Source: Bacillus sp. FSL H8-0547
Lineage (GTDB): Bacteria; Bacillota; Bacilli; Bacillales; Bacillaceae
Direction of reading: 5' to 3'
Length of the DNA stretch: 64,000 bases
Assembly: GCA_038002745.1 (NCBI GenBank)
Contig: JBBODD010000001.1
Location: 2,976,001-3,040,000 of the forward strand
The translations under genes were made by a program, and so were the position numbers. Numbering within the stretch: position 1 is the first letter of the stretch; every line of letters starts with the position of its first letter. The notes under the pieces are model-generated. The model worked only from the letters and a program-made list of their open reading frames with translations. It was not told the origin of the DNA and did no database searches. Below are positions 3,900 through 35,776 of the stretch, in pieces.

Positions 3900-5186
3900 A
3901 TGCGCAGTTATGAAAAATCAGGCAAGGCCTTCGAAGAAGCCCAAGGGCTGATGCCTGGCGGAGTGAACAGCCCTGTTCGCGCCTTTAAATCCGTCGCTAT
4001 GGATCCAATTTTCATGGAGCGGGGAAAAGGCTCTAAAATTTACGATATTGATGGAAATGAATATATTGATTATGTGCTTTCATGGGGACCGCTTATTTTG
4101 GGCCATACAAATGACGCGGTTGTTGAAGCCATCAAAAAGGTGACAGAATCCGGTACAAGCTTCGGAGCTCCGACGCTGATTGAAAATGAGCTGGCAAAGC
4201 TTGTGATTGACCGCGTGCCATCTATTGAAATTATCCGGATGGTTAGCTCTGGAACGGAAGCAACGATGAGTGCCCTGAGACTCGCTCGCGGTTTTACCGG
4301 AAGAAATAAGATTTTGAAATTCGAAGGCTGCTATCACGGCCACGGGGATTCTCTGCTGATCAAAGCAGGTTCAGGCGTTGCAACTCTTGGACTGCCTGAC
4401 AGCCCGGGAGTTCCCGAAGGAGTAGCCAAAAACACGATTACTGTTCCGTACAATGACATGGAAAGCGTAAAATACGCCTTTGAACAGTTCGGTGATGACA
4501 TTGCCGGTGTGATTGTGGAGCCGGTTGCAGGAAACATGGGCGTTGTCCCTCCGCTTCCAGGCTTCCTAGAAAGCCTGCGCAGCATCACACAGGAGTACGG
4601 TTCACTGCTTATCTTTGATGAAGTGATGACAGGCTTCCGGGTTGATTACGGCTGTGCTCAAGGGTACTTCGGCGTTACGCCTGACCTGACATGCCTCGGG
4701 AAAGTGATCGGCGGCGGACTTCCTGTCGGAGCATATGGCGGCCGTGCCGACATTATGAAACAGGTTGCGCCGAGCGGACCGATTTACCAGGCTGGCACCC
4801 TGTCCGGAAACCCTCTTGCGATGACAGCAGGCTATGCAACGCTCAGTCAGCTTACTCCGGATACCTACAAAGAATTCGGCAGAAAAGCGGACATCCTTGA
4901 AGAAGGATTAACAGCGGCTGCTGAAAAACACGGCATTCCGATTACAGTGAACCGCGCGGGATCAATGATTGGCTTTTTCTTTACAGACGAGAACGTCATC
5001 AATTTCGAAAAAGCGAAGACATCCAATCTTGAGTACTTCTCAAAGTTCTATCGCGAAATGGCAAACGAAGGTGTCTTTCTGCCGCCTTCACAGTTCGAAG
5101 GTCTGTTCCTTTCCACTGCCCACAGTGATGAGGATCTTGAAAAGACGATTGCAGCGGCAGAGAAAGCATTCGCTGCCCTTAAATAA
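3900..5186 (+). CDS. hemL: Glutamate-1-semialdehyde 2,1-aminomutase
   Basis: PLP-dependent enzyme that moves the amino group of glutamate-1-semialdehyde to give 5-aminolevulinate. The 428-residue protein has [13 protein letters not shown] near the N-terminus, [16 protein letters not shown] for phosphate binding, FDEVMTGFR for the PLP-ring aspartate, and [15 protein letters not shown] with the internal-aldimine lysine. AGGAGGAG lies 9 bp before the ATG. It is the last gene of the heme operon; a strong hairpin terminator follows 5 bp after its stop. Confidence 0.96.
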
Positions 5187-24814: not shown

Positions 24815-25429
24815 ATGCTGGCCGATATTAATTTGCTGCCGAAGAAAGATCCCAGGAATGTGGCCAATGCCACGCTCTATCTTCTTCTTGCTTTTATCGC
24901 CGTCATCTTTGCGGGGCTTTTTATCATTCAGCTGACTTCTGCCAATGGAGAAAAAGCAGACGTTAAAAACCAGGTTGCGGCAGTTGAATCAGAGCTTGAG
25001 CGGCTCATGGCTGAGAAAGGAACAGAAGGCAGTTCAAGCTCTTCTGTTTCCGCTCTTCAAAGCGCTGTTGAATATGCTGATGGCGTTTCGCTCGATTCTG
25101 TTCCGGTAGTAAAAGAACTCGCAGGCAAACTTCCTGAACGGGGCTTCTTCAAAACCTTCTCCTACAATGACGCAGGAGAGCTGACCCTCTCTGTCCAGTT
25201 TGATACAAACCGCGAGGCAGCGTACTATCTTGCGAGATTGAAAGAATCATCTTATTTTACAAAAGCTGACCTGATCAGTATAGCTGCGGTCAAAGGCGAA
25301 GGAACTGTCACGCCTGAAGAAGAAACCAATGAGGTCTCGAGGTCAGAAGCACAGTACATTCTCAGAGTGAATCCGGATTATTTACAGGCAGAGAGCGGGG
25401 AACAGGCTGATGACAATTCATCTTCATAA
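24815..25429 (+). CDS. pilN: Pilus alignment protein PilN
   Basis: A 204-residue bitopic protein. The N-terminus MLADINLLPKKDPRN has the INLLP motif that binds PilM; one membrane helix (LYLLLAFIAVIFAGLFII) follows, then a coiled coil and a small periplasm-equivalent domain. It begins directly after the pilM stop and its end overlaps pilO by 20 bp. Confidence 0.88.
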   Translation: MLADINLLPKKDPRNVANATLYLLLAFIAVIFAGLFIIQLTSANGEKADVKNQVAAVESELERLMAEKGTEGSSSSSVSALQSAVEYADGVSLDSVPVVKELAGKLPERGFFKTFSYNDAGELTLSVQFDTNREAAYYLARLKESSYFTKADLISIAAVKGEGTVTPEEETNEVSRSEAQYILRVNPDYLQAESGEQADDNSSS

Positions 25430-26231
25430 AAAACATCTTATCGTCCTGCTTGCAGCAGCCCTTTTGCTTGGCCTGCTTTATTTTGGTGCGTACTTTCTGT
25501 TTCTGAAGCCTGTAAAACAGGAAATCAGCACGCTTGAGACTTCAAAAAACATGCTAAACGCCCAGGTGGCTGCTCTAGAAGAGAATCCTTCGACAGAAAC
25601 AAAGGCTCCCGTTCATTCTGTAGAATTACAGCGAAAAGTCCCGGTTTCCCCGATGGTGGAGCAGATTGTGCTTGATCTTGAAAGGGCGGAGACCATTTCA
25701 AACAGTAAAATTGAGAGCATCACGTTTGCTGAGAGTGAAAACGCCCTTCTTCCCCCGCCTGCTGAACCGGAAAAAACCCAGCCTGAAGCAGCCGATAATG
25801 AAACTCCTGTTGGTCAGACTGAAAGCCCTGAGGTTCCAGATTCAGCTGAGACAGCACCTGTTCAGCCTGAAAATGCCCAGGCTGCTGCACCGGCAGCCGA
25901 ACTGCCAGCGGCACCTGAGGGACTTAAACGCATCCTTATTACGCTAGAGGTGACGTCCGGCAACTATTTCGACATGGAAGCCTTTATTGCAGAACTTGAA
26001 ACACAGCAGCGCGTCGCGAAAGTTGACCTGCTAACGTTTAATGGAGCAAAAGAGTTGACTTCCCTTGATCAGGAAGCAGAACCGCTGAAGTATTCCCTTC
26101 AGGTCTCCGCCTTTTATATGGATACTCTTCAGGACCTTAAGGATGAAACGCCAAAAGTGGCAGCGCCCGAGCCGGGGGGCAAGCTGAATCCCCTCAACAC
26201 TTCCCTCGTAAAGGAAGAAGATGGCGAATAG
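25410..26231 (+). CDS. pilO: Pilus alignment protein PilO-like
   Basis: A 273-residue protein with a short cytosolic N-terminus, one membrane helix (LIVLLAAALLLGLLYFGAYF), a coiled coil, and a ferredoxin-like C-terminal region (ILITLEVTSGNYFDMEAFI). Between them lies a Pro/Glu/Ala-rich insert of about 55 residues not typical of short PilO proteins. It is the last gene of the pil operon and ends before a strong terminator. Confidence 0.8.
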   Translation: MTIHLHKKHLIVLLAAALLLGLLYFGAYFLFLKPVKQEISTLETSKNMLNAQVAALEENPSTETKAPVHSVELQRKVPVSPMVEQIVLDLERAETISNSKIESITFAESENALLPPPAEPEKTQPEAADNETPVGQTESPEVPDSAETAPVQPENAQAAAPAAELPAAPEGLKRILITLEVTSGNYFDMEAFIAELETQQRVAKVDLLTFNGAKELTSLDQEAEPLKYSLQVSAFYMDTLQDLKDETPKVAAPEPGGKLNPLNTSLVKEEDGE

Positions 26232-26257
26232 AGCGGGTATTTGACGAAAACCTTTCT

Positions 26258-26288
26258 GAACAAGACGACAAATGTCTTGTTCTTTTTT
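26258..26288 (+). terminator. Terminator of the pil operon
   Basis: GAACAAGAC (26258-26266) and GTCTTGTTC (26274-26282) form a perfect 9-bp stem followed by six T residues. Confidence 0.92.
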
Positions 26289-26348
26289 ATTTTTGCTGTG
26301 CTAGCATGAAAACCAAATACTCGATTCGTACAGATAGGCGGTGTAGAG

Positions 26349-27377
26349 GTGGACAAGCGTGCACATGCAATGAAGGTTAAGATCAATGGCGAGGAACGGA
26401 ATTGGAAGGGGAAGAATAATCGAAAAAAAGGAAAGAAAGAGGAAGAGGCAGAAAAGCCTGACATTCCTGTAACGAGCTGGAATGAAAAAGCGATGGCAGA
26501 GCAGGAGGCGGCCGCGTCTGATGCTGAAAAAGAAGATGAGTTCACATGGGTCCTCCCGGATGATGACGGGGAGGTTTTCCAGGATGACCCCAAAGTTGTC
26601 GCCGTTAAAAAGGTATCCTCTAAATCCAAGCATTCTCCATACTTCAGTACTGGGAAAAAGGTTCATCTAAGTGCGTATCCATTTAAGCAATATGCCATCA
26701 CCATTGTGCTCGCGATTGTGCTGGGCGTAAGCTTCGGATTTCTTGCCCTGAATTTCATGTCAGACGAGGATCTTCCTGCCGCTCTTCAGACAGGCGCGGG
26801 ACAGGCGGAAGGAGAAACGGCGGCTCCTGAGGCAGCAGGCGGGGATGCGGGCGCAGGAGCTGCAGAGCAAACGATTCAGCTTTACTTCGCTCAAATCGGA
26901 AAGTTTTCTTCTAAGGAGGGTGCCGATGCCACGGCTGCCGACTTAAAAGCTAAAGGGTTTCCTGCTGCAGCAGTTGAGGAAGACGGCTCCTACTTCGTTT
27001 ACGGGGGAGTCGGCAATGAAAAACAGGAGGCAGACGGGCTGAGCAATGTCTATAAGTCCAGCTCCATTGATACATGGAGCGGAAAAACGGCTGACTTCTC
27101 TGTGAAATCAAATGAAGATGCGTCAGCATTCATCGGCCATTTCAAAACACTTGTTTCCCTCTCATCCGCCGCGGTGGAAGGAAACGGCAAAGAGGTAAAA
27201 TCGAAATCTGAAGCTGTTCTTTCAGAGCTTGGAAAGCTTAAACCGAAGGATGAACGTCTTGTTTCGATGAAAAAAGAATTAACGGATGTGTCGTCATTGC
27301 TTGCTGAAGGTGCTGATGAAAAGACAGGATGGGCCGCACAGCAGAAGCTGATGGACCTGCTTGTTTCGCTTAACTGA
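26349..27377 (+). CDS. spoIIB: SpoIIB-like SPOR-domain sporulation protein
   Basis: A 342-residue bitopic protein. It has a charged cytosolic N-terminus (MKVKINGEERNWKGK), one membrane helix (AITIVLAIVLGVSFGFLAL), an Ala/Gly-rich linker, and a SPOR-type domain (IQLYFAQIGKFSSKEGADA, YFVYGGVGNEKQEA) that should bind denuded septal peptidoglycan. In B. subtilis SpoIIB helps engulfment-septum remodelling and sits between comC and maf, as here. Start GTG 26349 follows AGGCGG; ATG 26370 is an alternative. Sequence conservation of SpoIIB is low, so position is part of the evidence. Confidence 0.82.
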   Translation: MDKRAHAMKVKINGEERNWKGKNNRKKGKKEEEAEKPDIPVTSWNEKAMAEQEAAASDAEKEDEFTWVLPDDDGEVFQDDPKVVAVKKVSSKSKHSPYFSTGKKVHLSAYPFKQYAITIVLAIVLGVSFGFLALNFMSDEDLPAALQTGAGQAEGETAAPEAAGGDAGAGAAEQTIQLYFAQIGKFSSKEGADATAADLKAKGFPAAAVEEDGSYFVYGGVGNEKQEADGLSNVYKSSSIDTWSGKTADFSVKSNEDASAFIGHFKTLVSLSSAAVEGNGKEVKSKSEAVLSELGKLKPKDERLVSMKKELTDVSSLLAEGADEKTGWAAQQKLMDLLVSLN

Positions 27378-27387
27378 ATTTCCCGGG

Positions 27388-27416
27388 GCATCTCTATGAA
27401 AAGAGGTGCTTTTTTT
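27388..27416 (+). terminator. Terminator after spoIIB
   Basis: GCATCTCT pairs with AGAGGTGC (one G-T pair) across a short loop, followed by seven T residues. Confidence 0.85.
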
Positions 27417-27433
27417 GCGGGAAAAAGCTGCTG

Positions 27434-27502
27434 TTTTTCGTGCAAAATTCTATTTTGGCCTTTTGTGCATCCTGCCGGTGTTTGCTAAGATACGAGTGTA
27501 TC
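27434..27502 (+). repeat. Left copy of the 69-bp maf promoter repeat flanking the island
   Basis: This 69-bp stretch matches 34386-34454, the region just upstream of maf, at 66 of 69 positions by eye. It contains the same TTGTG..-17 bp-TAAGAT promoter-like elements but has no maf gene behind it. Together the two copies bracket the A+T-rich island at 27.5-34.4 kb. Confidence 0.9.
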
Positions 27503-27539
27503 AAAGAAGCGCTGAAACGTTCTACCCCTTTGATTATCT
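27503..27539 (+). pseudogene. Relic of radC fused to the duplicated maf promoter
   Basis: Positions 27503-27539 match 35576-35612 inside intact radC at 33 of 37 bases, starting with an identical 17-mer (AAAGAAGCGCTGAAACG). The matched part encodes the residues just before the RadC HNHP metal motif. Homology stops at the IIC codons and is replaced by island sequence. The relic directly abuts the left maf-promoter copy, so about 1.1 kb (all of maf and the first two thirds of radC) is missing between them. Confidence 0.8.
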
Positions 27540-27741
27540 TGGGACATATTTTCAAGGTTTTTAGGGTGAAGTAAAATCTTAAAAATTACTAAACTTATAA
27601 TATTTTTATTTTATTCAGTATTATTGGGCGGAATATCCGAGTTAATGCCCTTATTTACTTGTTAAGTTAGTTATCCGTTAGTAAAATAGAATTGAGAATG
27701 TAAAATTTATATATTTTATATAATTATAATAGGTGATACAG

Positions 27742-28260
27742 ATGCAATTAACATTCCATGATGAATTAAATAAGAATTTAAGTGGTGCTATAATTGATGA
27801 AAAGAAAGAATATAGGTACTCTTTGTGGAGAATTTGGAATGAAAATCTTCCAAGGATTACTTTTATCATGTTAAACCCTAGTACAGCAGATGACCAAGAA
27901 GATGATCCAACACTTCGCAGATGTATAAAATTTGCTATGGGTTGGGGATTTGGGTCACTTGAAGTTGTGAATCTTTTCGCCTATAGGTCAACAGATCCCA
28001 AATTATTAATTTCAGCGCATGATCCTATAGGTGAAAAAAATAATGAATATATTAGAGAAGCGTTGAATAGATCTGATAAAGTAGTACTCGCTTGGGGGAC
28101 CAAAGGGAGTTTATTAGATAGAGATAAGGAAGTTTTACAATTGTTAAAAGATATTAGTACTCCTATATATACATTAGAGTTAACACGATATGGGTATCCA
28201 AGACATCCTCTCTATGTAAAAGCTGATAAAATCCCAGAACCTTTTTTGAATAAAAGCTAA
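27742..28260 (+). CDS. DUF1643 family protein
   Basis: A 172-residue protein with the DUF1643 pattern: ITFIMLNPSTADDQEDDPTL, RRCIKFAMGWGFGSLEVVNL, LFAYRSTDP, KVVLAWGTKGS and a C-terminal YGYPRHPLYVKAD. The family is common in bacterial accessory regions and phages; its function is unknown. ATG 27742 follows AGGTGA by 5 bp; GTG 27733 overlaps that site. It has its own terminator and stands apart from the operon downstream. Base use is A+T-rich like the rest of the island. Confidence 0.85.
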   Translation: MQLTFHDELNKNLSGAIIDEKKEYRYSLWRIWNENLPRITFIMLNPSTADDQEDDPTLRRCIKFAMGWGFGSLEVVNLFAYRSTDPKLLISAHDPIGEKNNEYIREALNRSDKVVLAWGTKGSLLDRDKEVLQLLKDISTPIYTLELTRYGYPRHPLYVKADKIPEPFLNKS

Positions 28261-28306
28261 GTCGTCGAAGGAATATGACCTTGATGGCTTAGCTTTTTCT
28301 AATATT
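28252..28306 (+). terminator. Terminator whose 5' arm includes the DUF1643 stop codon
   Basis: AAAAGCTAAG (spanning the TAA stop) pairs with CTTAGCTTTT, with further inner pairing and a T-run. The 3' end of the gene and its terminator are merged. Confidence 0.82.
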
Positions 28307-28690
28307 TTAATAGTAGGGATTACTAGTGTCAGAATAATAATCATTATTAATTTCATTTTTTGTGCTGCTAATAAAGTTATCTACATCGATAACTTTTATG
28401 TGATTGATCAAGCATTTCTTTTTGTTCAGTATCATATCTATTTGTTTTACAAATACTTCAACACATAGTACAACTGTTGCCTGAAAGAGTTAATTTTTCG
28501 TTAATTAATTCAAACTCGTTTCTTTGTTGATCCACATAAAGTAATAATTTCCCGGTTTTTTATTAATACTATAATTCAAAAGAACTACTTTCGACTCTTG
28601 TAAAAAATAAACAATTTTTTAGCCTTTTAAGTATTTATATAAGCTTTAAAACTGTATAATTAACTAAATATAGTAAATGGAGAGATGACA
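28307..28690 (+). other. Island intergenic region with promoter and a possible decayed ORF
   Basis: About 380 bp without an intact gene. TATAAT at 28655-28660, 30 bp before the kinase start, is a plausible -10 for the eight-gene operon; the -35 is weak. GGAGAG at 28679-28684 is the ribosome site. On the minus strand, 28559-28378 reads as about 60 codons of protein-like sequence interrupted by one TGA (including NRYDTEQKEMLDQSHKSY), possibly a dead gene. I do not recognise it. Confidence 0.4.
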
Positions 28691-29317
28691 ATGAAGGGAC
28701 TATGGATTACTTTTGAAGGAATTGGTGGATCTGGAAAGTCGACTCAAGCGGGCCTTTTGTATGAATACTTAAAAAAACAGTCAATAAATGTAGCGTTAAC
28801 AAAAGAACCAGGCGGAACTTTAATAGGTGGTTTATTAAGAAATATCCTCGTAACTAATTTAGATGTTAAACCAGAAAGTTTATCTGAGTTATTTTTGTTT
28901 GAAGCTGATAGACATGAGACTTTTAAGAAGATTGTAGAGCCTAATAGTAAAGAAGGGGTAATTACTATTAGTGACAGAGGTATTGATGGTTCTATAGCGT
29001 ACCAAGGATTTGGAAGAGGTCTTGATATCAATATAATTAGTACTTTAACAAATCTTGCGACTAATAATAGAAAACCAGATATTACTTTTTTAGTAGATAT
29101 AGAGCCGAAAATTGCCCAGAAAAGAATTGCATTAAGGGATAATAAAACCTTAGACAAATTCGATTTAGAAAAAATAGATTTTCAAAGTAGAGTTCGTGAA
29201 GGATTTTTATATACTGCTGAGAAAGACCCAGATAGGATAAAGATTGTTGATGGCACAAAGGATTTTCAATCATTAAATAAAGATATCGTACAGATAATTG
29301 AATCTCAAATGAAGTAG
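28691..29317 (+). CDS. dTMP-kinase-like nucleoside monophosphate kinase
   Basis: A 208-residue thymidylate-kinase-family protein, first gene of the island operon. The P-loop is FEGIGGSGKST (residues 8-18); KEPGGT, then SDRGIDGSIAYQGFGRG, the counterpart of the canonical DRYxxSxxAYQG motif, with the usual Tyr changed to Gly. The lid region carries FQSRVREGFL. It probably phosphorylates dTMP or a modified pyrimidine dNMP. ATG 28691 lies 7 bp after GGAGA. A chromosomal tmk normally lies elsewhere in Bacillus, so this would be a second, specialised copy; with two ThyA-like proteins downstream it suggests dedicated nucleotide chemistry. Confidence 0.88.
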   Translation: MKGLWITFEGIGGSGKSTQAGLLYEYLKKQSINVALTKEPGGTLIGGLLRNILVTNLDVKPESLSELFLFEADRHETFKKIVEPNSKEGVITISDRGIDGSIAYQGFGRGLDINIISTLTNLATNNRKPDITFLVDIEPKIAQKRIALRDNKTLDKFDLEKIDFQSRVREGFLYTAEKDPDRIKIVDGTKDFQSLNKDIVQIIESQMK

Positions 29318-29337
29318 AAAAATAAAGGATGATACAA

Positions 29338-29592
29338 ATGCAAGGAGAATTAGTTGAGAAAATCGCAGACTATCTTGAAGATATTTGTGGTGACAGTGCG
29401 GAAAGAATTATTAATGAAATTCTTGAATTTGGTGATACAGATGTGGAGTCAATCTTTTTTTTAGAAATAATCGGTATGTTGGAAGAAGATATGGGCATTA
29501 ATATACCAGTAAAACAAGTACATAAACGTGTTAAATCTTCTTTCAAAGATTTTTGTACACTAGTAGATGAGATTTTGGAGGGGAAAACATGA
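29338..29592 (+). CDS. Acyl-carrier-protein-like protein
   Basis: An 84-residue acidic, helical protein with the carrier-protein layout: FGDTDVESIFFLEIIGMLEE followed by DMGINIPVKQV, matching the ACP helix-II pattern D-S-L...ELxxxLEExFxIxIP. Ser38 in DVESI stands at the phosphopantetheine site (the usual DSL reads ESI). A phosphopantetheinyl transferase five genes downstream supports it being modified. ATG 29338 follows AAAGGA by 8 bp; ATG 29329 is less likely. Its stop overlaps the next gene's start (ATGA). What it carries is unknown. Confidence 0.78.
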   Translation: MQGELVEKIADYLEDICGDSAERIINEILEFGDTDVESIFFLEIIGMLEEDMGINIPVKQVHKRVKSSFKDFCTLVDEILEGKT

Positions 29593-29894
29593 ATATAAAT
29601 AAAAGATTAATCAATGCACGCGATTACGTTGGGCTAACTTTAGAATCTGTTGCAGAAATCTTAAATATTCCCTTAGAATCCTTGACTAAAATCGAAAATG
29701 GTCAGGTGATACCAAAAACAGAGGATTTAGAAAAGTTTTCAAAGTTATATAAGCACTCCATAAATTATTTTTTAGATAGCGAATATAGTTTTAAATCTGA
29801 TGTTGAAGTGATGGCCCGAGCAACTTCTGATTTATCAGATAACGATCGTGAACATGTAATGAGGTTTTCATACATACTTTCAAACATGAAATAG
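29589..29894 (+). CDS. Xre-family regulator paired with ImmA/IrrE protein
   Basis: A 101-residue protein with an N-terminal helix-turn-helix (LTLESVAEILNIPLESLTKI, then ENGQVIPKTEDLEKFSKLY) and a short C-terminal tail ending SDLSDNDREHVMRFSYILSN, typical of Xre partners encoded next to COG2856 metallopeptidases. It overlaps the carrier gene by 4 bp and is 10 bp from the peptidase gene. By analogy with ImmR/ImmA it may repress this operon until cut by its partner; no operator was identified. Confidence 0.85.
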   Translation: MNINKRLINARDYVGLTLESVAEILNIPLESLTKIENGQVIPKTEDLEKFSKLYKHSINYFLDSEYSFKSDVEVMARATSDLSDNDREHVMRFSYILSNMK

Positions 29895-29904
29895 GGGTGT
29901 AACA

Positions 29905-30873
29905 ATGAGTTTATCTAGACAAGAAATAATTAAAACAGCCTTCGCAGACGCTTCAAGAGTTTTAGCGAAATGCAAAGTTTCTCTTACAGAACCAGTAGAC
30001 ATATTTAAGATAATTGATAATTGTAACGTAATTTTAAATTTTCAAAAACTGGAGAATTTAGCTGGTGCATATATACCTGAGACAAAAGAGAATCGTGCAG
30101 GGATATTGATAAATGAGAACTTACCATTATCTCGACAAAGGTATACAGCAGCACATGAATTTTGTCATTTTATAAGGGGAGATTCAGCAAGTTTTGATAC
30201 CTCAGAAGAGTTATTTTATGAAAGTTATAAAAGAGAAGATAATGAGAGGATTGCAGAAGAATTTGCTTCTTGTTTGCTAATGCCTAGGAGACTAGTATTG
30301 AGTATTCTTAAAAATATAGGTATAAGGGACAGTGAATTAATTAATCCTAGAGCTGTTTATGACCTTTCTTTAAGAATGGGGACTAGTTACCAGGCTACAT
30401 TAAATAGACTATTTACTTTAAAGATTTTTCAAACAAAGAAAAAATTTGATGAATTAGACGTAGAACCAATAGAGATTAAAAAAGAATATGGAATTGATAA
30501 ACTTTCTTCAAATTGGAATAATATTTGGAATTTATCGGAGGAAGAGAAGGCTAGTACTATTTATCCAAATGTTGGAGATGAAGTAAGAATATTATTGGAG
30601 GAAAATCCAACTACTGGATATAAGTGGATATTACCTCCGGATATCGAGGGGATAACCACTTTTTGGAATTCATTTCAAGAAGATAGCAGTATGTTTGGAG
30701 GTTCTGGTATTAGAAATATTATATTGAAGATTGAGGAAATTGAGGACATAAAATTGAATCTATATCACAATCGACCTTGGCGACCTTTATCTGACTCGAT
30801 AAATATGTTCAATTTAAATATCTCTGTTCAAAAGAAGAGACATGGCATTCACATAAATAATTTGGTTGCTTAA
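29905..30873 (+). CDS. ImmA/IrrE metallopeptidase fused to a chagasin-like protease inhibitor
   Basis: A 322-residue two-domain protein. Residues 1-190 are an ImmA/IrrE (COG2856) peptidase: YTAAHEFCHFIRGD with zinc ligands His84, Glu85, His88, and a downstream RIAEEFASCLLMP helix supplying the third ligand Glu. Residues about 215-315 match chagasin (MEROPS I42) inhibitors of papain-family proteases, with all three inhibitory loops: NPTTGYKW (from Asn234), GGSG (265-268) and RPW (290-292). The next gene encodes a papain-like peptidase, so the fusion looks like a sensor protease carrying the inhibitor of its neighbour. Chagasins are usually stand-alone; this linkage is unusual. Confidence 0.86.
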   Translation: MSLSRQEIIKTAFADASRVLAKCKVSLTEPVDIFKIIDNCNVILNFQKLENLAGAYIPETKENRAGILINENLPLSRQRYTAAHEFCHFIRGDSASFDTSEELFYESYKREDNERIAEEFASCLLMPRRLVLSILKNIGIRDSELINPRAVYDLSLRMGTSYQATLNRLFTLKIFQTKKKFDELDVEPIEIKKEYGIDKLSSNWNNIWNLSEEEKASTIYPNVGDEVRILLEENPTTGYKWILPPDIEGITTFWNSFQEDSSMFGGSGIRNIILKIEEIEDIKLNLYHNRPWRPLSDSINMFNLNISVQKKRHGIHINNLVA

Positions 30874-30890
30874 AGGGGTTATTTGAAATT

Positions 30891-31562
30891 ATGAGTCAAA
30901 AATACAAATTCACAGTGGATCTAAGATATAGTTTTCCGGAAGTAAGAGATCAAGGTAGAAGAGGGACGTGTACTGCTTTTGCGGTTACTTCTAGTCATGA
31001 GCATCATAGAAACTTAGAAGAGCGATTGTCAGAAGAGTTTCTATTTAGCTGTGCAAAATCAATCCAAGGAGCTTACGATGATAAAGGAGTAAGTATAATT
31101 ACAGCATTAAAATCAATTTATCTTTATGGTCATACAACAAATGATTTATTACCCTATAGAGAAACTTCGGAATTCCCCTTATTACTTAAAGATATTCCAA
31201 AAGGAATATTAACTGAAGCTGAAACCAGAAAAATAACCTCATATAATACAGTTAGCCAGATTATAAGTGATATAGAAACTCAACTTAGTGAAGAACGGTC
31301 TGTAATCGCTGGTGTTGTAGTACAACCAACATTTTGGTTATCCCCTGGAAATAATTTTATAGATGTCCCTTCCATTGAATCTGTTGAAGGTTATCATGCA
31401 ATTGTAATTGTAGGTTATGGAGAAAGAAATGATGGAAACAAATGTTTTATTATTAGGAATAGTTGGGGTGCAGATTGGGGAGATAGTGGCTACGCATATG
31501 TTTCTTATGAATATTTTACAAAATATAGTATTGGAACCTGGACTATTCCTAAGGGGGCATAA
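30891..31562 (+). CDS. Papain-like (C1 family) cysteine peptidase, cytosolic
   Basis: A 223-residue protein that is almost only the papain catalytic domain. Gln21 and Cys27 lie in VRDQGRRGTCTAFAV, His169 in VEGYHAIVIVGYG, and Asn190 in IIRNSWGADWGDSGYAYV, so the catalytic set is complete. There is no signal peptide and no inhibitory propeptide, so the enzyme should be made active in the cytosol unless held by an inhibitor. The chagasin-type domain encoded immediately upstream is the obvious candidate. Substrates are unknown. It begins 17 bp after its neighbour and ends 2 bp before the next gene. Confidence 0.88.
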   Translation: MSQKYKFTVDLRYSFPEVRDQGRRGTCTAFAVTSSHEHHRNLEERLSEEFLFSCAKSIQGAYDDKGVSIITALKSIYLYGHTTNDLLPYRETSEFPLLLKDIPKGILTEAETRKITSYNTVSQIISDIETQLSEERSVIAGVVVQPTFWLSPGNNFIDVPSIESVEGYHAIVIVGYGERNDGNKCFIIRNSWGADWGDSGYAYVSYEYFTKYSIGTWTIPKGA

Positions 31563-31564
31563 CT

Positions 31565-32326
31565 ATGAATGATGTTATTAAGGGTGAAAATATCTCTAAC
31601 GCATGGAAAAATGCTATTAATCATTTACTAAAAAATGGTAGAGAAGATTATAATCTAATAGTTGAGGTTGAAGATCCTACAAAAGATGACTCAGAGACGA
31701 GAAGGCAGTTTAATAGTGTTTTATTAGGTATGGGGAATCAAAGTATTGAAACTGTTGCTAATACAATTTTCCCTTATGGAATTTGGTCTAAAAGTGAAAA
31801 TAGAAATAAATTATATGAAAGGTTTATTAAAGTATATCCAACATTACGGAAAGTTCAAGAAAATAATAAAGGAACTTACTTTGGAAGATTAGTTCAATGC
31901 GGGTATGGAACAGATAAATGTTTTAATCAATTAGAAAATACTATCTTCAAATTAAGTAGAGAAAAAGAAAATGGTAGAGGTATAAGGGTTATGTACGAAA
32001 TGTCTATATATGATCCAATTCTAGACCTTAATAATCAGATGGGTTTTCCTTGTATGAGTTTTATAAGTGTAAAGATTAGAAAAGAGTTTGTAGATTTAAC
32101 TGCAGTATACAGAAACCAATACTTTGTCCAAAAGGCTTATGGAAATTACCTTGGATTGGGTAGATTATTAGAGTTTATTGCTAAAGAAGCTGGTTATAAG
32201 GTTGGAAAACTAACATGTATCGCAACTCACGCTGACTTAGGCTCTATAAGTCCTAAAGCAAACTTTAGCAAAATGGTTGACATATGTGCCAATCAGAAAC
32301 AAGTGGAACTTAATTTTGATGCTTGA
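31565..32326 (+). CDS. Divergent thymidylate-synthase-fold protein
   Basis: A 253-residue protein whose C-terminal half resembles the thymidylate synthase / dCMP hydroxymethylase superfamily. MGFPCMSFISVKI places Cys163 at the catalytic position. LTAVYRNQYFVQKAYGNYLG aligns with the phosphate and pyrimidine-binding segment, but the usual RSxD reads RNQY. LGRLLEFIAKEAGYKVG follows. The changes suggest a different nucleotide substrate or reaction, or a regulatory pseudoenzyme. AAGGGGG precedes ATG 31565. It overlaps the next gene. Family membership is inferred from motif pattern only. Confidence 0.66.
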   Translation: MNDVIKGENISNAWKNAINHLLKNGREDYNLIVEVEDPTKDDSETRRQFNSVLLGMGNQSIETVANTIFPYGIWSKSENRNKLYERFIKVYPTLRKVQENNKGTYFGRLVQCGYGTDKCFNQLENTIFKLSREKENGRGIRVMYEMSIYDPILDLNNQMGFPCMSFISVKIRKEFVDLTAVYRNQYFVQKAYGNYLGLGRLLEFIAKEAGYKVGKLTCIATHADLGSISPKANFSKMVDICANQKQVELNFDA

Positions 32327-32999
32327 TAGCCCAATAAATAAAAGTAGCTCTAAGCTCCTAAATAAAAAAATACATGCATTTATTAAGGGATATACTACTG
32401 AAGATTTAAATTGTTTACATAAAGAAGAGCTAGAATTATGGGAAAATAATAAGAGGTATTTAAGAAACGGTTGTAATTGGTTGGCTGGTAGAATTACTGC
32501 AAAATATTCAATAATAAGATGTCTAGGTTTAGACAATGAAGATATAAAATTATTAAATATTAAAAATAGAAGAAATGGTTCACCTTTTCTATTTAATTAT
32601 GATAATGATATAAGGTTTTCTATTGCACATTGTAGAGGGGTTGGGTTTTCTTGTTCTAGCTCGGAATTTAATTCTATAGGCTGCGACATAGAAAAAATTA
32701 AAATTAGGCACTATAAATTCCCTAACTATTTTTTGTCTGAATGTGAAAAGGATTTGTGGCTAAGGGAAACTTCCAAAGAAGATATGCATACATTGTTAAC
32801 TATTGCTTGGAGTTCTAAGGAAGCTTGTTATAAGTGCTTATCTTCTATTGGTTACAATGTTGAATCAATATTTGACATAAATATCCACAGTATTATTTTA
32901 GAAGAAAAACAGTTTAAGTTTTCCTTTGAGAAAAATGAGGGGATAGGCTATTGGGATAAGTATTCTGATTTTGTACTAAGTATAGCTGTGAAATTATAA
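32319..32999 (+). CDS. Sfp-type 4'-phosphopantetheinyl transferase
   Basis: A 226-residue protein with the Sfp-family motifs in order: NGSPFL and RFSIAHCRG; IGCDIEKI, with Mg-binding Asp123 and Glu125; and WSSKEACYK (164-172), with the catalytic Glu-Lys pair. It should move phosphopantetheine from CoA to a carrier protein serine. The obvious partner is the small carrier encoded in the same operon. ATG 32319 lies inside the 3' end of the preceding gene; the frame is open further upstream but within that gene. Confidence 0.88.
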   Translation: MLDSPINKSSSKLLNKKIHAFIKGYTTEDLNCLHKEELELWENNKRYLRNGCNWLAGRITAKYSIIRCLGLDNEDIKLLNIKNRRNGSPFLFNYDNDIRFSIAHCRGVGFSCSSSEFNSIGCDIEKIKIRHYKFPNYFLSECEKDLWLRETSKEDMHTLLTIAWSSKEACYKCLSSIGYNVESIFDINIHSIILEEKQFKFSFEKNEGIGYWDKYSDFVLSIAVKL

Positions 33000-33003
33000 A
33001 AGT

Positions 33004-33981
33004 ATGTATATTGGGGAGATACCTTTGCTCACTATATTAGGTAATAACTTTAGTGAAATTTATTACAACTTATTAAAAGAATCAATAAACAGTACCTCAT
33101 CTATTACTAATTCTAGGAATGGAGATGTCCGAGATTTAGGACCTGCATACTTTGAGATTAGCAATAAGGATATCTTTAGAATGCCTCTGTTAGATGGTAG
33201 AGGATTTAATCCTTTTTTTGCTCTAATGGAGTATTCTTGGTTGATAAGTGGTTCAAATCAGTTAGAGCCTTTAAGCTATTTTATTAAGAACTATAATCAA
33301 TTTTCTGATGATGGACAAACACTTTATGGGGCTTATGGCTATCGATTAAGGACTCTTAACGGTCAAGACCAAATTCGAAAAGCTATATCAGTTTTAAAGA
33401 AAGATAAAACTACAAGAAGAGTAGTTTTAACAATGTGGAGTAGTAGGGATTTGGGTTATGATTCAAAAGATATTCCTTGTAACGTATCGATAATGTTAAA
33501 AATACGAGATAATAAATTAGATATGACCGTTATTAATAGATCAAATGATGTGTATTTAGGTGTACCCTATAATGTACTAGTTTTCTATTTATTACAAAGC
33601 TATATTGCAGAACAAATTAATTGTAAAGTTGGTCATCAAAGGCATTTTACTGATTCACTACATTTATATTCGAAGCACTTTGAAAAAGTTAAAATAATAC
33701 TTGAGAAAAATGATCCTCAAATAATTGAAAAATTGTATGTAGAAAAGGAAAGTTTTGATATCTCAAACTTTGTAAATGTAGAACATGATAAAATGATTAA
33801 TCGTATTTATAATCAGGTATGTGAACCTTATCAGAAATTATTTAACCTCTATAACTTATACAAAAATGGTGATATTGATTCAAATACTGCTGTAGAAGAC
33901 TTGCCTAAAAATCTTTTAGGATATAGTGTATTTCTTTGGTTCAAAGAAAAGAAAGACTTTAGACCCTTTTGTAAATTTTAG
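33004..33981 (+). CDS. ThyA-like thymidylate synthase family enzyme
   Basis: A 325-residue protein that keeps most ThyA landmarks: MEYSWLISGSNQLEPL, the LYGAYGYRLR loop, catalytic Cys159 in KDIPCNVSIML, INRSNDVYLGVPYNVLVFYL with the phosphate-binding RSxD and the Asn that favours uracil over cytosine, and DSLHLYSKH with the conserved His and Tyr. Differences from E. coli ThyA: the residue after the active Cys is Asn, not His, and the folate-site Trp region is altered. It is longer than typical ThyA (about 264). Methyl or hydroxymethyl transfer to a dUMP-like substrate is plausible. Last gene of the operon. Confidence 0.84.
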   Translation: MYIGEIPLLTILGNNFSEIYYNLLKESINSTSSITNSRNGDVRDLGPAYFEISNKDIFRMPLLDGRGFNPFFALMEYSWLISGSNQLEPLSYFIKNYNQFSDDGQTLYGAYGYRLRTLNGQDQIRKAISVLKKDKTTRRVVLTMWSSRDLGYDSKDIPCNVSIMLKIRDNKLDMTVINRSNDVYLGVPYNVLVFYLLQSYIAEQINCKVGHQRHFTDSLHLYSKHFEKVKIILEKNDPQIIEKLYVEKESFDISNFVNVEHDKMINRIYNQVCEPYQKLFNLYNLYKNGDIDSNTAVEDLPKNLLGYSVFLWFKEKKDFRPFCKF

Positions 33982-34013
33982 AGAGAAATGAACAATTAAA
34001 TTTCAAAACAGTA

Positions 34014-34051
34014 AAGAATGTAAGTAACTTATACTTATATTCTTTTTTTTT
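34014..34051 (+). terminator. Terminator of the island operon
   Basis: AAGAATGTAAGTA (34014-34026) pairs with TACTTATATTCTT (34032-34044), a 13-bp stem with one G-T pair and a 5-nt loop, followed by a run of T. It lies 33 bp after the last operon gene. Confidence 0.92.
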
Positions 34052-34385
34052 AGAGATGAATTATGGTGGATTTCAATGAATGTCTTGGAAACTGAAGCAA
34101 AATGTTAAGACATCGGAAAATGAACTAGAATACGAGCGTAAATCTCGGGTATTAGATTATTGGAAGTATTCGATGGTTTAATAGGAACTGGAAAATCAAA
34201 AGATGATTAGTCAACAAATACAAAAATACATAGTAAGAAAAAGAAAGTAAGAGAAAGCTACTTGATAATTGAGAAAAAACTGATTATTAAGTTGCATAAT
34301 TATAAGGAGGCTGTTGGGGGGACCAGCCAGTCTTTTTATCCGCGCTTTCCGAATACAGAGCAAACACAACCGTTAATCCTTGCTT
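34052..34385 (+). other. Right-hand island margin, no intact gene
   Basis: About 330 bp. The first 240 bp are A+T-rich island-type sequence with frames broken by many stops; one short stretch reads LEVFDGLIGTGKSKDD, which could be a P-loop gene remnant or chance. Base composition changes near 34300, where a GGCTG...CAGCC hairpin with TTTTT may be an old terminator. Host-like sequence then leads into the maf promoter repeat. No integrase, transposase or clean attachment site is visible. Confidence 0.4.
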
Positions 34386-34454
34386 TTTTTCGTGCAAAAT
34401 TCTATTTTGGCCGTTTGTGAAACCTGCCGGTGTTTGCTAAGATACGAGTGTATC
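34386..34454 (+). repeat. Right copy of the 69-bp repeat, functional maf promoter region
   Basis: This copy lies directly upstream of maf. It contains TTGTGA (34415-34420), 17 bp, and TAAGAT (34438-34443) preceded by TGC, a sensible extended -10 promoter. It matches 27434-27502 with three differences. Confidence 0.88.
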
Positions 34455-34486
34455 TCCCTTTATACCGAATGAAAGGATGTTGAAGA

Positions 34487-35056
34487 ATGAAACATCATCT
34501 TATTTTAGCCTCAGGATCTCCGCGCAGAAAAGAGCTTCTTGAAAAAGTCAGCATCCCGTTTACTGTTGTTGTCAGTGATGTGGAAGAGACAGTTGACCCT
34601 GCGCTTTCGCCCTCTGACATTGTCATGTCTCTCGCTGAGCAGAAGGCCGCTGCTGTTGCAGAGCGCTTCAGAGACTCCGTTGTTCTTGGATCGGATACAG
34701 TAGTCGTTTACGGCGGCGAAATTCTCGGAAAACCTGCCGACGAAGAGGATGCAAAGACAACGCTTGCCAAGCTTTCTGGCAAAACACATCAGGTGCTCAC
34801 AGGTGTTGCCATTTTGCATCAGGAGAAGAAAATCGTTTTTTACGAGCAGACAGATGTGACATTCTGGCCGCTTACAGTTGAAGACATTGAAGAGTATGTG
34901 CTGTCCGGAGAGCCGATGGACAAGGCGGGATCCTACGGCATACAAGGTCTTGGATCACTGTTTGTAAAAGAGATCCGCGGTGATTATTTTTCTGTCGTAG
35001 GACTTCCTTTGTCAAGGACAGCGAGAGAGCTGAAAAAAGCGGGTTACATCCGTTAA
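34487..35056 (+). CDS. maf: Maf nucleotide pyrophosphatase
   Basis: A 189-residue Maf/HAM1-like house-cleaning enzyme that hydrolyses nucleoside triphosphates, especially modified pyrimidine ones such as m5UTP and dTTP. The N-terminus [35 protein letters not shown] and the [17 protein letters not shown] segment are diagnostic. In B. subtilis maf affects septum formation. It starts the maf-radC-mreB block. Its substrate type is noteworthy next to an island of thymidine-nucleotide-type genes, but the adjacency may be only positional. Confidence 0.94.
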
Positions 35057-35092
35057 GAGAAAGGCAGAGAGGGAATCAGGAGGAGAAACAGA

Positions 35093-35776
35093 TTGGACGT
35101 GCTGAAAATCCATGATTTCCCGTTGGAAGACAGGCCGCGTGAACGGCTGATTCATGATGGTCCTGAAAGTCTCGCAAACCATGAGCTGCTTGCCATCCTG
35201 CTTCGAACAGGTTCAAAAAAAGAGTCTGTTCTGCAGCTTGCCAACCGTTTGCTCAACCATTTTGAAGGCCTGCGGTTTTTAAAGGAAGCATCAGTCGCCG
35301 AGCTGACGAGCATTTCCGGAATCGGAGAGGCTAAGGCCGTTCAGGTTCTGGCGGCGCTTGAGCTCGGCAGACGGATCAACCGTCTTGCCTATGAAGACAG
35401 ATATGTCATTAAATCCCCTCAGGACGGCGCCAATTATGTCATGGAGGAAATGCGCTTTTTGTCACAGGAGCATTTTGTCTGCCTCTATTTAAATACGAAA
35501 AATCAGGTGCTTCATAAACAAACCGTTTTTATCGGAAGCCTGAATGCCTCAATCGTTCATCCCCGCGAAGTATTTAAAGAAGCGCTGAAACGCTCTGCCG
35601 CTTCGATTATCTGCATCCACAACCACCCGTCAGGCGACCCTTCCCCTAGCAGAGAAGATATTGAAGTTACTAAAAGATTAACAGAGTGTGGTAAAATGTT
35701 AGGGATAGAGCTTTTGGACCATCTTATTATCGGCGAGCAAAAATATGTGAGTTTAAAAGAAAAAGGATATTTGTAA
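35093..35776 (+). CDS. radC: RadC-like JAB-domain protein
   Basis: A 227-residue protein: N-terminal helix-hairpin-helix region (SISGIGEAKAVQVLAALELG) and C-terminal JAB/MPN metalloprotease-like domain with IHNHPSGDPSPSREDIE. Despite the name, a DNA-repair role is not established. Start is TTG 35093 after AGGAGGAG. This copy is intact; a 37-bp relic of the same gene lies 8 kb upstream at the left edge of the island. Confidence 0.94.
   Translation: MDVLKIHDFPLEDRPRERLIHDGPESLANHELLAILLRTGSKKESVLQLANRLLNHFEGLRFLKEASVAELTSISGIGEAKAVQVLAALELGRRINRLAYEDRYVIKSPQDGANYVMEEMRFLSQEHFVCLYLNTKNQVLHKQTVFIGSLNASIVHPREVFKEALKRSAASIICIHNHPSGDPSPSREDIEVTKRLTECGKMLGIELLDHLIIGEQKYVSLKEKGYL

Follow-up and report, generated by a model that had tools for sequence, protein, structure and literature searches.

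What function could be served by an operon that joins two thymidylate synthase (TS)-type proteins and a nucleotide kinase to a carrier protein, a repressor and peptidase pair, and a papain-like protease? Such an operon lies in Bacillus sp. FSL H8-0547, on contig JBBODD010000001.1 between positions 2,976,001 and 3,040,000; this whole stretch of 64,000 nucleotides is called the window below, and coordinates are counted from its first base. An earlier note, made from the sequence alone, had described here an operon of eight tightly packed, A+T-rich genes. All eight open reading frames (ORFs) are present where it had placed them on the + strand, with a G+C content of 0.29–0.32 and with neighboring genes that overlap by up to 8 nt or stand up to 17 nt apart, and the families it guessed for them all agree with profile matches (those to PP-binding and divergent TS being below cut-off), but the unit has nine genes, the DUF1643 gene at 27742–28260 and the ends of the surrounding island having been missed. 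The carrier protein, an Xre repressor, an ImmA/IrrE peptidase, often a C1 peptidase, and a TS-like enzyme (TSL) form the core of a widespread mobile gene family. The reading we prefer, to which we give somewhat less than an even chance, is that the whole is a derepressible, horizontally moved conflict cassette, most likely antiviral, that acts on C5-modified uracil with carrier-dependent chemistry.

The spread of TSL (P0006, 31565–32326, + strand) is sporadic. Among 60 near genomes it is found only in the window's own genome, and a TSL profile run against 397 genomes of the order gave strong matches only there and in genome G227 (the third, weak match is an ordinary ThyA). By tblastn it is present in 24 of 72,556 plasmid records, which range from Rhizobium to Streptomyces, Nostoc and the archaeon Haloarcula and of which 15 are typed conjugative, and in none of 50,697 phage records; it also occurs in three IMG/VR loci and in 117 stretches of an 84,980-species genome collection. 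These loci represent at least eight bacterial phyla, which from the record names we take to be Bacillota, Actinomycetota, Pseudomonadota, Cyanobacteriota, Planctomycetota, Chloroflexota, Verrucomicrobiota and Acidobacteriota, and one haloarchaeal plasmid. We compared 98 loci: 13 of the 24 plasmid records, the three from IMG/VR, that of G227, 80 retained from the 117 genome relatives, and the window (L020, an ordinary ThyA match, and L001 and L018, copies of the window's own genome, were left out). Dereplication at more than 60% shared 4-mers reduced the 98 to 71, for which neighbors were counted within 8 kb.

Hidden Markov model calls in the 98 loci were ImmA 95, Xre 94, carrier 92, MazG_C 89, C1 67, UDG 55 and HMUDK_hel (the 5-hmdU-kinase helical domain) 37, with AcpS (14), DCD (10), DUF1643 (7), Tmk (5), ThyA2 (5), PPTase (4) and ThyA (3) being rarer. 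The dereplicated counts are similar (ImmA 69, Xre 68, carrier 66, MazG_C 62, C1 43, HMUDK_hel 34, UDG 32; AcpS 12, DCD 8, DUF1643 6, ThyA2 5, Tmk 4, PPTase 4, ThyA 3). The order carrier-Xre-ImmA-(C1)-TSL on one strand is kept in 66 of the 66 dereplicated loci that have all core calls; the other five of the 71 lack one call. The window's nine genes recur in identical order in Neobacillus soli (L021) and G227 (L225), and this exact set was seen only in these three Bacillales genomes; elsewhere the nucleotide enzymes are replaced by MazG_C, HMUDK_hel, UDG or DCD. The genes keep company far more than chance would give, and the idea that they travel together, for which the earlier note had proposed a search of homologous neighborhoods, survived that search. 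No MazG_C match was found elsewhere in the window's genome, but control genomes likewise gave none.

TSL is the center of the chemistry. Its matches to the divergent TS model (6.8e-4) and to the NCBIfam methanogen TS model (1.1e-17) are both under those models' cut-offs, and its PDB profile matches have E values of 0.003–0.06; hhalign against the ThyA group gave 97.6% with an E value of 4e-12. Cys163, Asn194, Arg108 and Tyr105 (P0006 numbering) are present in 71 of 71 dereplicated loci. Judged by sequence, TSL is a true TS homolog with the catalytic Cys and base-binding Asn. The residues that match TS Arg126/127, His207 and Tyr209, which we take to be contacts to deoxyuridylate (dUMP), are not conserved across the TSL family, although arginines do lie close to the 126/127 stretch in P0006 and 61 of the 71 loci retain the position that matches Arg166. 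Because several such contacts are lost, TSL is unlikely to be an ordinary thymidylate synthase; because the Cys and Asn are kept, it likely carries out uracil chemistry, perhaps on a substrate other than plain dUMP.

The carrier protein (P0002, 29329–29592, + strand; Pfam PP-binding 0.0085, below its cut-off) has its attachment serine at position 41, a residue that all 69 dereplicated sequences share. An Sfp-type phosphopantetheinyl transferase (PPTase; P0007, 32319–32999, + strand; Pfam ACPS, PF01648, 5.2e-12) is encoded in the same operon, and the host has one other ACPS-family PPTase. We know of no described thymidine pathway with a carrier-protein step; the dihydroxypentyluracil of phage SP-15 was considered as a carrier-using parallel and dropped, both TS homologs of that phage being of the Thy1 type.

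The second TS-type protein, the ThyA-like P0008 (33004–33981, + strand; Pfam Thymidylat_synt 7.9e-33, phrog_5131 3e-66), and the Tmk-type deoxynucleoside monophosphate (dNMP) kinase P0001 (28691–29317, + strand; Pfam Thymidylate_kin 1.3e-46, TIGR00041 1.1e-49) are not the housekeeping enzymes, as the host has its own ThyA (264 aa, 440.9 bits) and another Tmk. P0008 is only 25.8% identical to host ThyA, and is 33.9 and 32.1% identical to the TS homologs of phages PaMx11 and Goe26, respectively. In all three proteins other residues stand in place of Trp80 and Trp83, and Asn in place of His147, and Arg21, Glu58, Arg126, Cys146, Arg166, Asp169, Asn177, His207 and Tyr209 are kept; a CMP 5-hydroxymethylase (5jnh, 1.1e-18) is among the nearest solved relatives of P0008 by sequence. 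M6/PaMx11-like TS with aG/PT-PPlase1 has been linked to thymidine hypermodification (PMC9599517), and a putative deoxyuridylate hydroxymethyltransferase has been named for both Yuavirus and the related phage Lydia (PMC11946847). From this residue pattern and these phage homologs P0008 is predicted to be a dUMP 5-hydroxymethyltransferase whose product is 5-hydroxymethyl-dUMP, in keeping with the TS-family nucleotide-modification logic that the earlier note had recognized.

Nearly every locus also encodes a protein expected to face DNA. UDG (55 of 98) and HMUDK_hel (37 of 98) never occur together, and 95 loci have a call for at least one of UDG, HMUDK_hel and DUF1643; the remainder are two cut loci and one with a UDG remnant. 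Six loci have neither UDG nor HMUDK_hel. Three of these (the window, L021 and L017) carry DUF1643; L019 is cut, and DUF1643 appears when its genome is read further; L090 begins at a contig end; and in L069 a UDG gene between TSL and MazG_C has lost all but its two ends. No HMUDK match is present in the window between 24001 and 40000. The window's DUF1643 protein (P0009, + strand; PF07799, 4.8e-51) has kept its order and place in both other Bacillales loci, L021 and L225. Since DUF1643 co-occurs with HMUDK_hel in four loci, it is not a pure substitute for the other partners. Its NPS, NLF and HPL motifs are suggestive of those of UDG, and it is possibly UDG-like; its assignment as a UDG was tried, and the likeness stays at the level of motifs, profile comparisons not being significant. 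A sequence search against solved structures gave no match for DUF1643 and nothing useful for HMUDK_hel or the cassette UDG. DUF1643 is also present in 151 phage records (68 Pseudomonas, 30 Caulobacter) and at least 590 IMG/VR stretches, and in one locus (L080:10730–12766) a single reading frame contains HMUDK_hel, MazG and MazG_C.

The cassette could instead mark the DNA of the element or its host with a 5-hydroxymethyluracil-derived base, a protection that hypermodified phages use, and so resist restriction or the nucleases of phages. The kinship of P0008 and HMUDK_hel to phage thymidine-hypermodification enzymes and the conjugative typing of most of the TSL plasmids would suit such self-protection, but the cassette of the window is chromosomal, as are others, regulation by a repressor and a peptidase points to a default state of off, and the UDG found in 32 of 71 dereplicated loci suits attack on modified DNA rather than its upkeep. 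We consider self-modification unlikely.

That switch consists of the Xre-type repressor P0003 (29589–29894, + strand; Pfam HTH_3 8.3e-8) and P0004 (29905–30873, + strand), an ImmA/IrrE metallopeptidase fused to a chagasin domain (Pfam Peptidase_M78 7.4e-15, Inhibitor_I42 1.1e-8). The inducible switch that the earlier note saw in this pair is supported by its resemblance in sequence to the CBASS regulators CapP (1e-22) and CapH (4.5e-6) in PADLOC, which found no CD-NTase or CBASS effector among the nine proteins; the cassette thus shares the Xre and M78 peptidase pair with CBASS and differs in having no cyclase or effector among its nine proteins and in the chagasin fused to the peptidase. The HExxH motif and Glu114 (P0004 numbering) are present in 67 of 67 dereplicated ImmA sequences. 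The supposed association of inhibitor and protease proved to be strict: ImmA carries chagasin if and only if a C1 gene is present (66 loci with both, 29 with neither and none discordant; n = 95). When only the best ImmA ORF of each dereplicated locus is scored, 41 have chagasin and C1, 27 have neither, and one has C1 without chagasin; this is probably L035, in which two ORFs share the ImmA sequence. The chagasin loops of P0004 are NPTTG, GGSG and RPW, agreeing with the I42 motifs NPTTG, GxGG and RPW given in PMC2607524; among 42 related chagasin domains GYxW is found in 41, RPW or QPW in 39 and exact NPTTG in only two.

The C1 (papain) peptidase P0005 (30891–31562, + strand; Pfam Peptidase_C1 1.1e-22) has the full triad Cys27, His169 and Asn190, and these and Gln21 are present in 45 of 45 dereplicated sequences (P0005 numbering). 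Of the 39 C1 proteins scored, 36 have their first Met 17–28 residues ahead of the catalytic Cys, which leaves no propeptide. In its loops and triad the pair is like known chagasin and papain-like peptidase pairs, and it differs from them in that the inhibitor is fused to ImmA inside a nucleotide-enzyme operon. Strict pairing with a peptidase made without a propeptide is also what would be expected if the peptidase were a toxin, chagasin its antitoxin and the nucleotide genes accessory to an addiction module; however, 27 of 69 dereplicated ImmA loci have neither C1 nor chagasin and still have TSL, and this explanation is quite improbable.

In the conflict cassette that we prefer, Xre would hold the operon silent until a stress or infection signal led ImmA to cleave it, in the way that CapP cleaves CapH. 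P0008 would make 5-hydroxymethyl-dUMP, which Tmk would then phosphorylate, and TSL with the phosphopantetheinylated carrier would add or swap a substituent at C5. In DNA this odd uracil would be recognized and excised or elaborated by a DNA-facing partner, which would be UDG in some loci, the HMUDK_hel protein in others and perhaps DUF1643 in the window; replication of the phage and perhaps of the host would thereby be spoiled. The C1 peptidase would be made active and restrained by the chagasin on ImmA, so that switch and protease would be coupled. An antiviral role is suggested by the mobility and sporadic distribution of the family, by a switch that resembles CapP/CapH, and by the validated anti-phage units with TS and 5-hydroxymethyluracil kinase domains and the predicted defense systems described in PMC13092281.

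The last paper offers partial prior art. Its available text names validated anti-phage E. coli DefensePredictor (2026) units in which TS and 5-hydroxymethyluracil kinase domains occur, without stating there whether these are in the same unit, and predicted defense systems with MazG, MazG-C, aGPT-PPlase and UDG; a figure-wide domain legend lists TS, dNMP kinase, 5hmdU kinase and NMAD. Among the window's nine proteins TS and kinase are present and HMUDK_hel and NMAD have no match, and related loci have HMUDK_hel, MazG_C and UDG; by contrast, carrier, ImmA, chagasin and C1 are unnamed in that text, the comparison being one of text and not of gene maps, and some of the published units may belong to this family. 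Likewise, the thymidine hypermodification pathway of Pseudomonas phages M6 and PaMx11 and their kin has a TS homolog close to P0008, and HMUDK_hel/aGPT-PPlase-type proteins occur in related loci, but the cassette adds the carrier, PPTase, Xre-ImmA switch, chagasin, C1 peptidase and TSL, lies in cellular genomes, and in the window is without HMUDK_hel (found in 34 of 71 related loci). We regard the cassette as a variant of the nucleotide- or base-modifying conflict systems. The earlier note knew of no described system with its gene set, and the carrier-Xre-ImmA-chagasin-C1-TSL combination is indeed unnamed, and no exact match to a characterized system found, in the literature searched, which did not include the key bioinformatic surveys of such neighborhoods. 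It is possible, though doubtful, that it represents immunity of a new class: the phosphopantetheine arm of the carrier would serve TS-type chemistry to build a C5-acyl or -alkyl uracil on demand, a partner with a DNA-glycosylase fold would act on that base in DNA, and chagasin-ImmA would, in a single step, read the signal, derepress the operon and release a papain-like protease in the cytosol. If the conflict-cassette reading is true, phage-style base hypermodification would extend to an inducible cellular system across bacteria and archaea; the strict inhibitor-protease pairing and the two mutually exclusive DNA-facing partners, which would be expected to share a substrate, are features open to test.

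Carrier, PPTase and TS-fold enzymes, together with the closeness of P0008 to 5jnh, might also be read as a pathway in which a diffusible nucleoside natural product is made on the carrier protein. The nine proteins include none from an adenylation, ligase, export or resistance family, and the DNA-facing partner is called in all but three of the 98 loci; we think such a product very unlikely.

The nine genes lie on a 6.9 kb island (27503–34380) bounded by 74-nt direct repeats (27429–27502 on the left and, upstream of maf, 34381–34454 on the right; 95% identical). In the close relative G004 the repeat is single copy, and window segments 25010–27502 and 34381–35322 align to one stretch there with an overlap of exactly 74 nt, so that this stretch is the empty site. 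Insertion was between what we take, from the translations, to be a SpoIIB-like gene and maf-radC-mreB. The operon region is about 30% G+C (0.29–0.32) compared with about 0.38–0.50 in its surroundings; the island is foreign and horizontally moved, and, despite the flanking 74-nt host repeat, no integrase was recognized among its nine proteins. That low G+C content and an insertion site simply gathered unrelated foreign cargo here is refuted by the nine-gene order shared with L021 and G227 and by the core order kept in 66 of 66 loci.

The strong terminator that the earlier note placed after the last gene is there (34013–34054, + strand; a 14-bp hairpin with a U run, -13.1 kcal/mol, z -3.5), unlisted by a simple consensus scan that requires at least three G-C pairs. 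The TATAAT promoter that it proposed is rejected as indistinguishable from chance: a scan for sigma-70-like promoters gave 22 sites where 36.1 were expected, none of them with TATAAT upstream of Tmk.

Fourteen near-identical cassettes of the C1/UDG type, with the same scores, are present in several genera of sphingomonads (L086–L100 except L090), which points to recent transfer; one of them, L088, is decayed. Split ImmA, C1, UDG or TSL frames give a decayed look to L088, L013:6962–7721 and L035, and the UDG remnant of L069 lies at 4838–5026. By eye, and with no control, the plasmid flanks of L006, L008, L009, L011, L012 and L013 are annotated with restriction endonuclease, ABC-three-component, AbiEii, CHAT, nucleotidyltransferase/HEPN, RES-Xre and caspase-family genes.

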